Assembly: GCF_000719135.1 (NCBI RefSeq)
Contig: NZ_JOEK01000001.1
Coordinates: forward strand, 806,001-870,000
Direction: 5' to 3'
From: Streptomyces avicenniae
GTDB taxonomy: Bacteria; Actinomycetota; Actinomycetes; Streptomycetales; Streptomycetaceae
Length of the DNA: 64,000 nucleotides
Shown here: piece by piece, positions 7,324 to 53,166 of the stretch
How the letters are laid out: the number at the start of each line of letters is the position of its first letter
How positions within the stretch are numbered: position 1 is the first letter of the stretch
The notes under the pieces: model-generated
What the model was told of the DNA's origin: nothing
What the model saw: the letters and a program-made list of their open reading frames with translations, nothing else
Databases searched by the model: none
Translations under genes and position numbers: made by a program

Positions 7324-8235
7324 GTGCCTGGATTCGTCGAGCAGCCCGAGCCCGTGCAGGTCCCGGGCCTCGTGCACCTGCACACCGGGAAGGTCCGCGA
7401 CCTCTACCGCAACGAGGCCGGCGATCTCGTCATGGTCGCCAGCGACCGCGTCTCCACCTACGACTGGGTGCTGACCACCGGGATCCCCGACAAGGGCCGC
7501 ATCCTCACGCGCCTGTCCCTGTGGTGGTTCGACCAGCTCGCCGATCTCGTGGACAACCACGTGCTGTCCACGGAGCCGCCGCCCGGCGCCCCCGCCGACT
7601 GGGAGGGACGCACCACCGTCTGCCGCGACCTCGACATGATCCCCGTCGAGGCCGTCGCCCGCGGCTACCTCACCGGCTCGGGGCTCGCGGAGTACGAACG
7701 CGACCGCACCGTCTGCGGCCTCGCCCTGCCGCCCGGCCTCAGCGACGGCTCCGAGCTGCCCGCCCCGCTCTTCACCCCCGCCACCAAGGCGGCCGTCGGC
7801 GACCACGACGAGAACGTCTCCTACGAGGAGGTCGCCCGCCTCGTCGGCTCCGACACGGCCACCCAGCTGCGCCAGGCGACCCTGGCCGTCTACGGCCGCG
7901 CCCGCGAGATCGCCCGCGACCGGGGCATCATCCTGGCCGACACGAAGTTCGAGTTCGGCCGCCCCAGGGGCGCGGGCGAGGAGGCGCCGCTCGTCCTCGC
8001 CGACGAGGTGCTGACCCAGGACTCCTCGCGCTTCTGGCGCAAGGACGAGTGGGAGCCGGGCCGCCCGCAACGCTCGTACGACAAGCAGTTCCTCCGCGAC
8101 TGGCTGCGGAACGAGTCCGGTTGGGACCCGACCGGCAGCACCCCGCCGCCCGAACTGCCCGCCGAGATCGTCGAGGCGACGCGCGCCGCCTACACCGAGG
8201 CGTACCGGCTGCTCACCGGGATGCCCTGGGACTGA
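7324..8235 (+). CDS. purC: Phosphoribosylaminoimidazole-succinocarboxamide synthase
   Basis: 303 aa from GTG with AGGAGG about 7 bases upstream. It catalyses the ATP-dependent ligation of CAIR and aspartate to SAICAR, step 8 of purine synthesis. Visible family marks are HTGKVRDLYRN near the N-terminus, VASDRVSTYDWVL, the EAVARGYLTGSG segment, and DTKFEFG followed by LADEVLTQDSSRFW. The length matches the longer, eukaryote-like bacterial SAICAR synthetases common in actinobacteria. A strong hairpin (8244-8268) follows the stop. Confidence 0.97.
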   Translation: MPGFVEQPEPVQVPGLVHLHTGKVRDLYRNEAGDLVMVASDRVSTYDWVLTTGIPDKGRILTRLSLWWFDQLADLVDNHVLSTEPPPGAPADWEGRTTVCRDLDMIPVEAVARGYLTGSGLAEYERDRTVCGLALPPGLSDGSELPAPLFTPATKAAVGDHDENVSYEEVARLVGSDTATQLRQATLAVYGRAREIARDRGIILADTKFEFGRPRGAGEEAPLVLADEVLTQDSSRFWRKDEWEPGRPQRSYDKQFLRDWLRNESGWDPTGSTPPPELPAEIVEATRAAYTEAYRLLTGMPWD

Positions 8236-8329: not shown

Positions 8330-8335
8330 CGAACG

Positions 8336-8408
8336 AGCGGACGACGAGATTCGAACTCGCGACCCTCACCTTGGCAAGGTGATGCTCTACCAACTGAGCC
8401 ACGTCCGC
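8336..8408 (-). tRNA. tRNA-Gly(GCC)
   Basis: 73 nt on the minus strand. Acceptor stem GCGGACG/CGTCCGC, D arm GCTC/GAGC with GG in the loop, anticodon stem TCACC/GGTGA with loop TTGCCAA (anticodon GCC), canonical T arm CGAG-TTCGAAT-CTCG, discriminator U, CCA not encoded. It is the downstream partner of tRNA-Gly(UCC), 45 bases away, and the two were probably transcribed together. Confidence 0.95.
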
Positions 8409-8453: not shown

Positions 8454-8525
8454 AGCGGGTGACAGGAATCGCACACTGCGCCTCCCCCTTGGAAAGGGGG
8501 TGTTCTACTACTGAACTACACCCGC
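8454..8525 (-). tRNA. Atypical tRNA-Gly(UCC), possibly non-proteogenic
   Basis: 72 nt on the minus strand. Acceptor GCGGGTG/CACCCGC, D stem GTTC/GAAC, anticodon stem CCCCC/GGGGG with loop TTTCCAA (anticodon UCC), discriminator U. Two invariant features are missing. The D loop is AGTAGTA, so G18-G19 is lost. The T region reads CAGTG-TGCGATT-CCTGT, with GTGC in place of GTTC and a T stem that hardly pairs. Acceptor, D and anticodon stems are intact, so this is not random decay. Staphylococcal tRNA-Gly used for cell-wall interpeptides shows the same two changes. It may serve FemX-type glycyl transfer to lipid II; that role is inference. Confidence 0.85.
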
Positions 8526-8633
8526 GCGACCCGGGGTTCGGACCTTTCGGTTCCTTGCCCTTCGGCGTGCTCCAGACTCTAGCCGATCACCTGGGGTGGA
8601 TGGCAAATCGAGGGGCGACGCCCCGGGAGGCGG

Positions 8634-8963
8634 TCAGGCGACGGTGGCGTGCGCCTCGTTGAACGCGTCGTAGACCCGCTTCGGGATGCGTCCCCTGGCG
8701 GGCACGCCGAAGCCGTTGGAGTCGGCCCAGGCGCGTACCGCGCGCGGGTCGGGGGCCACGGCGGTGTGGGTGAAGGTGCGCCCCGAGCGTGACCGCTTGC
8801 GGCCCGCCTCGACGAACGGCGCGAGCGCCGAGCGGAGTTTGGCCGCGTTGCCCGGGCTGAGGTCGATCTCGTACGTCTTCCCGTCGAGCCCGAAGGCGAC
8901 CGTCTCCGACGCCTCCCCGCCGTCGATGTCGTCGGCGAGGGTCACCACTACACGCTGTGCCAC
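8634..8963 (-). CDS. lsrL: Lsr2-family nucleoid protein (LsrL paralogue)
   Basis: 109 aa from ATG, the standard Lsr2 length. The N-terminal oligomerisation part has VVVTLADDIDGGEASETVAF. The C-terminal DNA-binding part ends FGVPARGRIPKRVYDAF, whose RGR is the AT-hook-like element that enters the minor groove of AT-rich DNA. Lsr2 proteins silence AT-rich, horizontally acquired genes. Streptomycetes have Lsr2 and a second copy, LsrL. The location next to purSQL fits LsrL (SCO4076 in S. coelicolor, from memory). Whether this copy silences the low-GC genes in the window is not shown. Confidence 0.93.
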   Translation of the reverse strand: MAQRVVVTLADDIDGGEASETVAFGLDGKTYEIDLSPGNAAKLRSALAPFVEAGRKRSRSGRTFTHTAVAPDPRAVRAWADSNGFGVPARGRIPKRVYDAFNEAHATVA

Positions 8964-52665: not shown

Positions 52666-52990
52666 ACATGCAGCGTGGCGGCACTCCCGCGGCGCTGTCA
52701 AAGGCTGCCGTGGTAACCGTTGTCGTTCCCGCGCGCCGCCGCCGGTACCGCTTCCGACCCTTACCGATCGTGAACGAGGGAGCGCGCTCCGCATAACAAA
52801 TGACACTCCGTCAGATGCGATGTGCAGCACATCACCTCCGCGAGATGCCCGTTTTGATCAACTTGAGGCGAGATTTTCCGTGCCCCGTTCCCGCGTCTTT
52901 TCCGCGGACACTTGGAATCTCGCGCCGACTTCTATTAACGTTCGATAACGCAGCGCGGTCGTCACTGTCGTCGCTAGGACGGCACCGTGC
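52666..52990. other. Upstream region of arsR-like gene and M23 peptidase
   Basis: 325 bases with no gene. It contains the perfect inverted repeat GATGTGC-A-GCACATC (52819-52833), which looks like a regulator site but has no identified owner. An AT-richer stretch (52840-52960) presumably carries the promoter of the riboswitch RNA. I cannot place -35/-10 elements with confidence. Confidence 0.4.
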
Positions 52991-53150
52991 TCTGTCGCTT
53001 AATCCTGTGTGCGGGAACACCCGCACCCGAGGAACCGGGGAACCACCATCTGGGGTGAATCGGACAGCCGCAGGCCACCACCGCCTTCGGCCGCCCGTAG
53101 GAGACCTTCCTGCTCCGAACCCGTCAGCTAACCCGGTAGGCGAAGGAAGG
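52991..53150 (+). ncRNA. ydaO/yuaA-type (c-di-AMP) riboswitch
   Basis: The RNA between about 52991 and 53150 carries the conserved blocks of this riboswitch in order: GCTTAATCCTG, GGGAACAC, CCCGAGGAACCGGGGAACCA, GGGGTGAATCGG, GTAGGAGACCTTCCTGCTCC, GAACCCGTCAGCTAACCCGG and a closing TAGGCGAAGGAAGG. The class binds c-di-AMP. In streptomycetes it is known upstream of cell-wall hydrolases (rpf and M23 genes), where c-di-AMP turns expression off. It ends 16 bases before the M23 peptidase GTG, right against the AAAGGAG ribosome binding site. Confidence 0.9.
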
Positions 53151-53166
53151 AAAGGAGAGCGCCTCC

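Follow-up and report, generated by a model that had tools for sequence, protein, structure and literature searches.

The split of aminoacyl-tRNA between protein synthesis and cell wall synthesis is clear in few bacteria. Staphylococcus aureus possesses non-proteinogenic (cell-wall) tRNA-Gly isoacceptors, which Giannouli is said to have reported in 2009. These tRNAs also have the UCC anticodon and the replacement of U55 by G that are described below. A specialized S. aureus tRNA-Gly is described as serving translation poorly and being favored for peptidoglycan synthesis (PMC4810233), and the A51-U63 and A49-U65 pairs are given as features of the staphylococcal tRNAs that make for weak EF-Tu binding (PMC4052509). 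The string GUGC does not occur in the accessible text of PMC4810233. The FemX and VanK enzymes of Streptomyces coelicolor are listed as users of aminoacyl-tRNA (PMC4052509). A different kind of tRNA-like gene is the Bacillus cereus pseudo-tRNA tRNA-Other, which lies outside translation, alters gene expression, is poorly aminoacylated, and adjoins a pathogenicity island; its deletion alters cell wall morphology (PMC3399842).

We analyzed a 64,000-nucleotide stretch of DNA, referred to here as the window, that contains an unusual tRNA-Gly(UCC) gene (the odd tRNA). Unlike tRNA-Other, the odd tRNA has a constant chromosomal neighborhood in the tested loci and intact glycine identity letters. Among the matches listed in open PMC papers, a collection that leaves subscription literature mostly outside its scope, no paper on the odd tRNA was found.

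Anatomy of the odd tRNA-Gly(UCC)

The sequence running from 8525 to 8454 on the minus strand matched the tRNA family model RF00005 with 56.6 bits (gathering score, 29; E value, 1.5e-9). Together with an NCC anticodon, U73, and a C2-G71 pair, this score places it among tRNA-Gly genes, and it retains undamaged acceptor, D, and anticodon stems, as an earlier note made from the sequence had claimed. ARAGORN called six tRNAs in the window, and the odd tRNA was not one of them; the variants of some relatives are called by the same program. A core tRNA can escape a standard gene finder. From its 5' end, the gene reads as acceptor GCGGGTG, TA, D stem GTTC, D loop AGTAGTA, GAAC, and A, followed by anticodon stem CCCCC, loop TTTCCAA, GGGGG, and variable region AGGC, and then by T arm GCAGTG-TGCGATT-CCTGT, acceptor CACCCGC, and U73. 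Its parts are as follows.

8454..8525, minus strand: odd tRNA-Gly(UCC), 72 nt including discriminator U73, with no encoded CCA
8506..8512, minus strand: D loop AGTAGTA, with A for G18 at 8509 and G19 retained at 8508 (from the sequence)
8491..8493, minus strand: anticodon UCC (from the sequence)
8474..8479, minus strand: T stem 5' strand GCAGTG, with a bulged U at 8475 (from the stem-pairing comparison)
8467..8473, minus strand: T loop TGCGATT, with G for U/pseudouridine 55 at 8472 (from the sequence)
8462..8466, minus strand: T stem 3' strand CCTGT, present in 47/47 distinct family sequences (its first two letters were fixed by the pattern that collected them, and TGT was free)

Two of the departures from a standard tRNA had been overstated. 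G18-G19 was said to be gone; compared with the 7-nt D loop of the canonical tRNA-Gly(UCC), AATGGTA, position 18 is indeed A, but G19 is still present. The T stem was said hardly to pair, which is true of a straight five-by-five stem, whereas a stem with one bulged U, GCAG-(U)-G / C-CUGU, has five pairs and leaves the odd tRNA one nucleotide longer than the canonical UCC isodecoder. In 26 distinct family sequences, a subset of the 47, 99.2% of T-stem cells were paired with the bulge, compared with 40.0% in the unbulged stem, and the straight stem was rejected on this basis. The claimed change of the T loop from GTTC to GTGC was borne out: T54-U55-C56 reads T-G-C, so that position 55 is G and C56 is retained. 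The minimum-energy fold of the single strand has a different T-arm pairing. One of its pairs is lost in the 7 of 16 same-genus sequences that carry A at position 57, and a further pair in the 5 of 47 sequences with U55, so this fold was not adopted, though it may still form.

The earlier note had also likened the gene to the staphylococcal cell-wall tRNAs. The odd tRNA does resemble them in several respects, but it keeps G19 where they have lost G18 as well as G19, and the bulged T stem is its own. As in S. aureus, there is an extra glycine isoacceptor, redundant with a canonical tRNA-Gly (149/150 same-genus genomes), that has a changed G18 and an A51-U63 pair and is accompanied by a FemX-type enzyme. 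Given the bulged pairing, A51-U63 occurs in 47/47 distinct odd-tRNA sequences and A49-U65 in 6/47; position 49-65 is G.U in the other 41, in contrast to the A49-U65 of the staphylococcal tRNAs. The GG of the D loop is replaced by UU or CU in S. aureus, whereas here G18 is A in 42 of the 47 and G19 is kept. The T-stem bulge, and with it the extra nucleotide, is a feature of the odd tRNA that has no counterpart in the accessible text on S. aureus in PMC4052509. S. aureus also belongs to a different phylum, and the matched states at positions 18 and 55, considered below, are a feature of the odd tRNA.

Conservation, redundancy, and genomic setting

Searched by BLAST, the odd tRNA had, among the matches listed, a counterpart in 150/150 genomes of the window's genus (g1, by far the largest genus drawn, which we read as Streptomyces). 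We built a covariance model, R1, from 16 distinct same-genus sequences, that of the window among them; its scores were 105.8 bits for the odd tRNA of the window and 65.8 bits for the canonical UCC isodecoder. The order-wide search bore out that the changes in the D loop and T arm are conserved throughout Streptomyces, the point on which the earlier note had wanted homologues aligned, with the odd tRNA found in 104/104 same-genus genomes (all at least 92.9 bits) and in 0/15 genomes of two sister families (best, 74.4 bits). Class-wide, R1 found it in 44/44 same-genus genomes (at least 93 bits) and in 0/349 genomes of 42 other families (best, 75.6 bits, a 71-nt match); the filters of both searches were stricter and may drop weak matches, and because R1 is trained on one genus, an unlike odd tRNA could escape it. 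A pattern for GCGG-type tRNAs with a GTGC T loop matched the same 44/44 genomes and 2/349 other genomes of the class, and one further chance match was seen in G411; the reversed-pattern control matched in 19/393 genomes. The two matches (L178 and L179) were not tRNA-like by eye, and a class-wide GTGC tRNA-Gly was rejected.

Within the family, R1 found the odd tRNA in 64 of 81 genomes, the 17 without it being all 13 of genus g135, all three of g132, and G559. A pattern left free at positions 18 and 55 matched 221/297 family genomes, representing 15/17 genera and including Streptacidiphilus, which retains the odd tRNA. The 76 unmatched genomes were g135 (70/70), g132 (3/3), G559, G673, and G711. 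G673 does have the odd tRNA, one base shorter (90.4 bits). The locus is missing from the assemblies of G559 and G711, the latter being 71% complete, and neither counts as a clear loss; since G559 has only a weaker Lsr2-like paralogue in place of the orthologue and lacks the neighboring tRNA-Gly(GCC) as well, its case is likely an assembly gap. A search of plasmids with the odd-tRNA region returned 220 records, none of which spanned 80% of the query, and the best 20 of the 220 matched the neighboring tRNA-Gly(GCC).

The odd states are fixed in the 16 distinct same-genus sequences, in which the D and anticodon stems vary with compensatory changes. In the 26-sequence set, eight pairs are altered on both sides (37 cells), a figure reached in 0/500 shuffles. 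No T-stem pair is altered on both sides in this set, and the 5' strand of the T stem among the 47 distinct sequences is GCAGTG in 41, ACAGTG in 4, ACATGG in 1, and ACAGCG in 1. G71, C72, and U73 are invariant in the 47, for which G1, C2, and the anticodon were preset by the pattern; since that pattern demanded UCC, the constancy of the anticodon there is no test. The absence of purifying selection and the decaying stems that mark a tRNA pseudogene were not seen in the odd tRNA. The gene is real and, given the genus-wide conservation of its unusual D loop and T arm, is not decaying.

The 6.48-Mb, 65-contig assembly contains 54 tRNA genes by RF00005 search. A second, canonical tRNA-Gly(UCC), for which the earlier note had proposed to look, is present at G000:C11:165658-165588 (RF00005 and ARAGORN) and, by exact pattern, in 149/150 same-genus genomes, G092 being the exception. 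It has the amino acid, anticodon, U73, and similar acceptor and D stems in common with the odd tRNA and differs from it by its G18-G19, its GTTC, its length of 71 nt, and a T stem of five regular base pairs (GCGGG/CCCGT). The remaining tRNA-Gly genes of the genome are one CCC and two GCC species, and all four, the canonical UCC gene included, have GG and GTTC. When the genome was searched by BLAST with the odd tRNA, only the gene itself and one 20-base match were returned. Of 1176 glycine codons counted in a rough selection of 27 genes from the window, 65 are GGA. A separate observation is a second, divergent tRNA-Cys(GCA) of this genome (L033), additional to that of the Gly-Cys-Val cluster.

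The surroundings of the odd tRNA comprise the following features.

8335..8408, minus strand: canonical tRNA-Gly(GCC), neighbor (ARAGORN; RF00005, 71.8 bits)
8634..8963, minus strand: Lsr2-like gene, the constant upstream neighbor (tblastn across relatives)
7324..8235, plus strand: purC-like gene, the convergent neighbor (reading frame)
8576..8581, minus strand: putative -10 box TAGAGT of the odd tRNA's own promoter (pattern test and alignment of 59 upstream regions)
8601..8606, minus strand: putative -35 box TTGCCA, with a 19-nt spacer (pattern test and upstream alignment)

The products of 8634..8963 and 7324..8235 are taken by us, from their protein sequences, to be Lsr2-like and purC-like, respectively. 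Neighbors were compared at 30 loci (L049 and L051-L079), the best matches of the BLAST search with the odd tRNA. The Lsr2-like gene adjoins the odd tRNA in 30/30 of these (63-100% identity by tblastn), and a tRNA-Gly(GCC) lies beside it in 29/30; that of the window is canonical, as had been claimed. The purC-like gene is also at the locus in G556 and G558, both of which are without the odd tRNA. In 3/3 examined genomes that lack the odd tRNA (G556, G594, and G558), a second tRNA-Gly(GCC) stands next to the Lsr2-like gene in its stead. At the corresponding loci (L266, L270, and L271, respectively), the region upstream of this second gene is unlike that of the odd tRNA. G556 also has an extra tRNA-Gly(UCC), at L279:1499-1573, with canonical loops and the anticodon stem AAACC/GGTTT. 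Several genomes contain two or three odd-tRNA copies; in L060, L063, L066, and L074 these lie close together beside the Lsr2-like gene, and in G120 two copies are about 4 kb apart and point in opposite directions.

The promoter-like pair TTGCCA-19-TAGAGT ends 50 bases upstream of the odd tRNA. A loose -35/-10 pattern matched 61 of 93 distinct family upstream regions, whereas 200 single-letter shuffles averaged 0.66 matches and never exceeded 3, and a stricter one matched 14/93, compared with 0.1; the pattern was written after the pair had been noticed, and the 93 regions are related by descent and so are not independent. The 50-nt leader (8526-8575, minus strand) is itself conserved in 59 same-genus loci and contains a GGCCGAAAGGCC-like hairpin and a ACGCCGAGGGG block. 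Binding of DasR has been described at a tRNA-Gly upstream of SCO3679 (PMC4398421); no connection between that tRNA-Gly and the odd tRNA was established.

Matched states at positions 18 and 55

In the elbow of a standard tRNA, position 18 is in contact with position 55. Of the 47 distinct 72-nt family sequences, 42 are A18/G55 and 5 are G18/U55, and none is mixed. The D loop of the A18 forms is AGTAGTA (29), AGTAGCA (11), or AGCAGTA (2), and that of the G18 forms is AGTGGCA (2), AGTGGTA (2), or AATGGCA (1). G19 was constant in the sequence sets that did not demand it, as the 47-sequence pattern did. The five G18/U55 forms come from g123, from g126 (read as Embleya), and from contigs of Yinghuangia, Embleya, and Streptomyces sp. 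SID3343, and all five retain the bulged T stem. The odd tRNA of SID3343 is identical to that of Embleya scabrispora, and that of G537 (g126) is identical to that of Embleya hyalina.

Because E. scabrispora has been placed outside the Streptomyces-Kitasatospora-Streptacidiphilus clade (PMC6113628), the T-stem bulge probably arose first and the elbow switch later. The matched states are suggestive of coevolution between positions 18 and 55, rather than proof of it, since they may stem from one or two events. Three natural states thus exist: a bulge with a normal elbow (Yinghuangia and Embleya), a bulge with a switched elbow (Streptomyces and most other sampled genera), and absence (two genera). 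The odd tRNA is a natural test of what may replace the contact between G18 and pseudouridine 55.

The strict matching of states is what a maintained contact predicts, and it is an argument for regarding the odd tRNA as an ordinary translating isodecoder, in which A18/G55 forms an alternative elbow contact roughly equal in performance to G18 and pseudouridine 55, the bulge is tolerated, and a second gene for GGA/GGG is beneficial. The retention of G19 and C56 points the same way, as does the occupation of its slot by a translating-type tRNA-Gly(GCC) in the three examined genomes of the lacking genera. We nevertheless think such a role rather unlikely. Nearly every same-genus genome (149/150) already has a canonical UCC isodecoder, GGA is rare, the other four tRNA-Gly genes of the genome keep GG and GTTC, and the T arm of the odd tRNA hardly ever departs from its unusual form.

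A candidate glycine donor and FemX

Our preferred reading, which we hold tentatively, is that the odd tRNA may be a specialized second tRNA-Gly(UCC) that supplies a glycine pool outside translation, with FemX most likely its main client. G1-C72, C2-G71, U73, and C35-C36, which we take to be the glycine identity letters, are kept in the odd tRNA, and on this ground we infer that glycyl-tRNA synthetase would charge it normally. The weak, bulged T stem (A51-U63, with the bulge beside pair 52) and the A18/G55 elbow may leave it less used by EF-Tu and by the ribosome, so that the charged odd tRNA would form a non-translational pool of glycine. FemX, in attaching the glycine bridge to LL-diaminopimelate, would then draw on this pool, as has been suggested for the cell-wall tRNA-Gly of staphylococci. 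The FemX step in LL-Dap-Gly walls uses glycine and is tRNA dependent; FemX is put forward as the most likely client because its genes, which serve such a step, occur in every tested genome of the family. The specialized-donor reading is favored by the canonical isodecoder in 149/150 genomes, the rarity of GGA, the odd form in 104/104 genomes, the unmixed states at positions 18 and 55, the compensated stems, the promoter-like element, and A51-U63 in 47/47 sequences.

FemAB genes (PF02388) were found in 34/34 family genomes and in 3/14 named control genomes, and all 34 encode a protein that shares 66.7-100% identity with the best FemAB protein of the window's genome. In the FemX tree, Embleya groups with Yinghuangia; 20 of 41 inner branches are well supported, and the rooting is not settled. 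Eleven of the 34 FemAB-bearing genomes, eight of g135 and three of g132, lack the odd tRNA. A strict link between the odd tRNA and FemX is therefore not supported, and no genomic link between the odd tRNA and femX was seen. The persistence of FemX-type orthologues in g135 and g132 counts against the specialized-donor reading and means that FemX does not need the odd tRNA everywhere; the absence of the odd tRNA from these genera shows that they can replace its function or do without it.

Wall chemistry also bears on this reading. The walls of Streptomycetaceae are described as containing LL- or DL-A2pm, and those of Nocardioidaceae as containing LL-A2pm and glycine (PMC6113628). Yinghuangia and Embleya are described as LL-A2pm organisms (PMC6113628); they have the bulged T stem with a normal elbow, which is a further point against the odd tRNA as a specialized donor. 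The genomes of sister families and of the class that are without the odd tRNA probably include some with LL-Dap-Gly walls, which argues in the same direction. Both DL- and LL-A2pm are reported for Kitasatospora and Streptacidiphilus (PMC6113628) and for Kitasatospora sp. SUK42 (PMC8545861). We infer that g135 is Kitasatospora, since it is the second-largest genus drawn from the family; if so, mixed LL/DL walls may explain its missing odd tRNA through a lower need for glycine bridges. Against this idea, Streptacidiphilus is reported to have the same mixed trait and yet retains the odd tRNA.

In its evolutionary form, the specialized-donor reading would make the odd tRNA a second class of cell-wall tRNA with an origin of its own: the Streptomycetaceae would have diverted one tRNA-Gly(UCC) from translation through a T-stem bulge, followed by the swap of the G18-pseudouridine 55 contact for A18-G55, so as to supply FemX with glycine. 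We regard this as conceivable but somewhat doubtful. If true, a core gene of the most studied antibiotic producers would offer a handle on the split between protein and wall synthesis.

The odd tRNA may instead be off translation for a purpose other than the wall, for instance as a supplier of FemAB-like natural-product enzymes, as a regulatory tRNA, or as a source of tRNA fragments. There are precedents in DhpK and Orf11, FemX-like users of Gly-tRNA in Streptomyces secondary metabolism (PMC12945691), and in the B. cereus pseudo-tRNA that alters gene expression from outside translation (PMC3399842), and such a role would fit with FemX-type genes that persist where the odd tRNA is absent. Presence in 104/104 same-genus genomes is ill suited to a pathway of a few strains, however, and we consider a non-wall role unlikely. 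That the odd tRNA is a decaying pseudogene is highly improbable, the lost consensus letters of the T and D loops and the silence of ARAGORN in the window being outweighed, throughout the genus, by its fixed odd positions, its compensated stems, the promoter-like element, and the conserved gene order.

Elsewhere in the window, a c-di-AMP riboswitch (ydaO/yuaA leader) was identified at 52986-53157 on the plus strand (RF00379, 81.9 bits).
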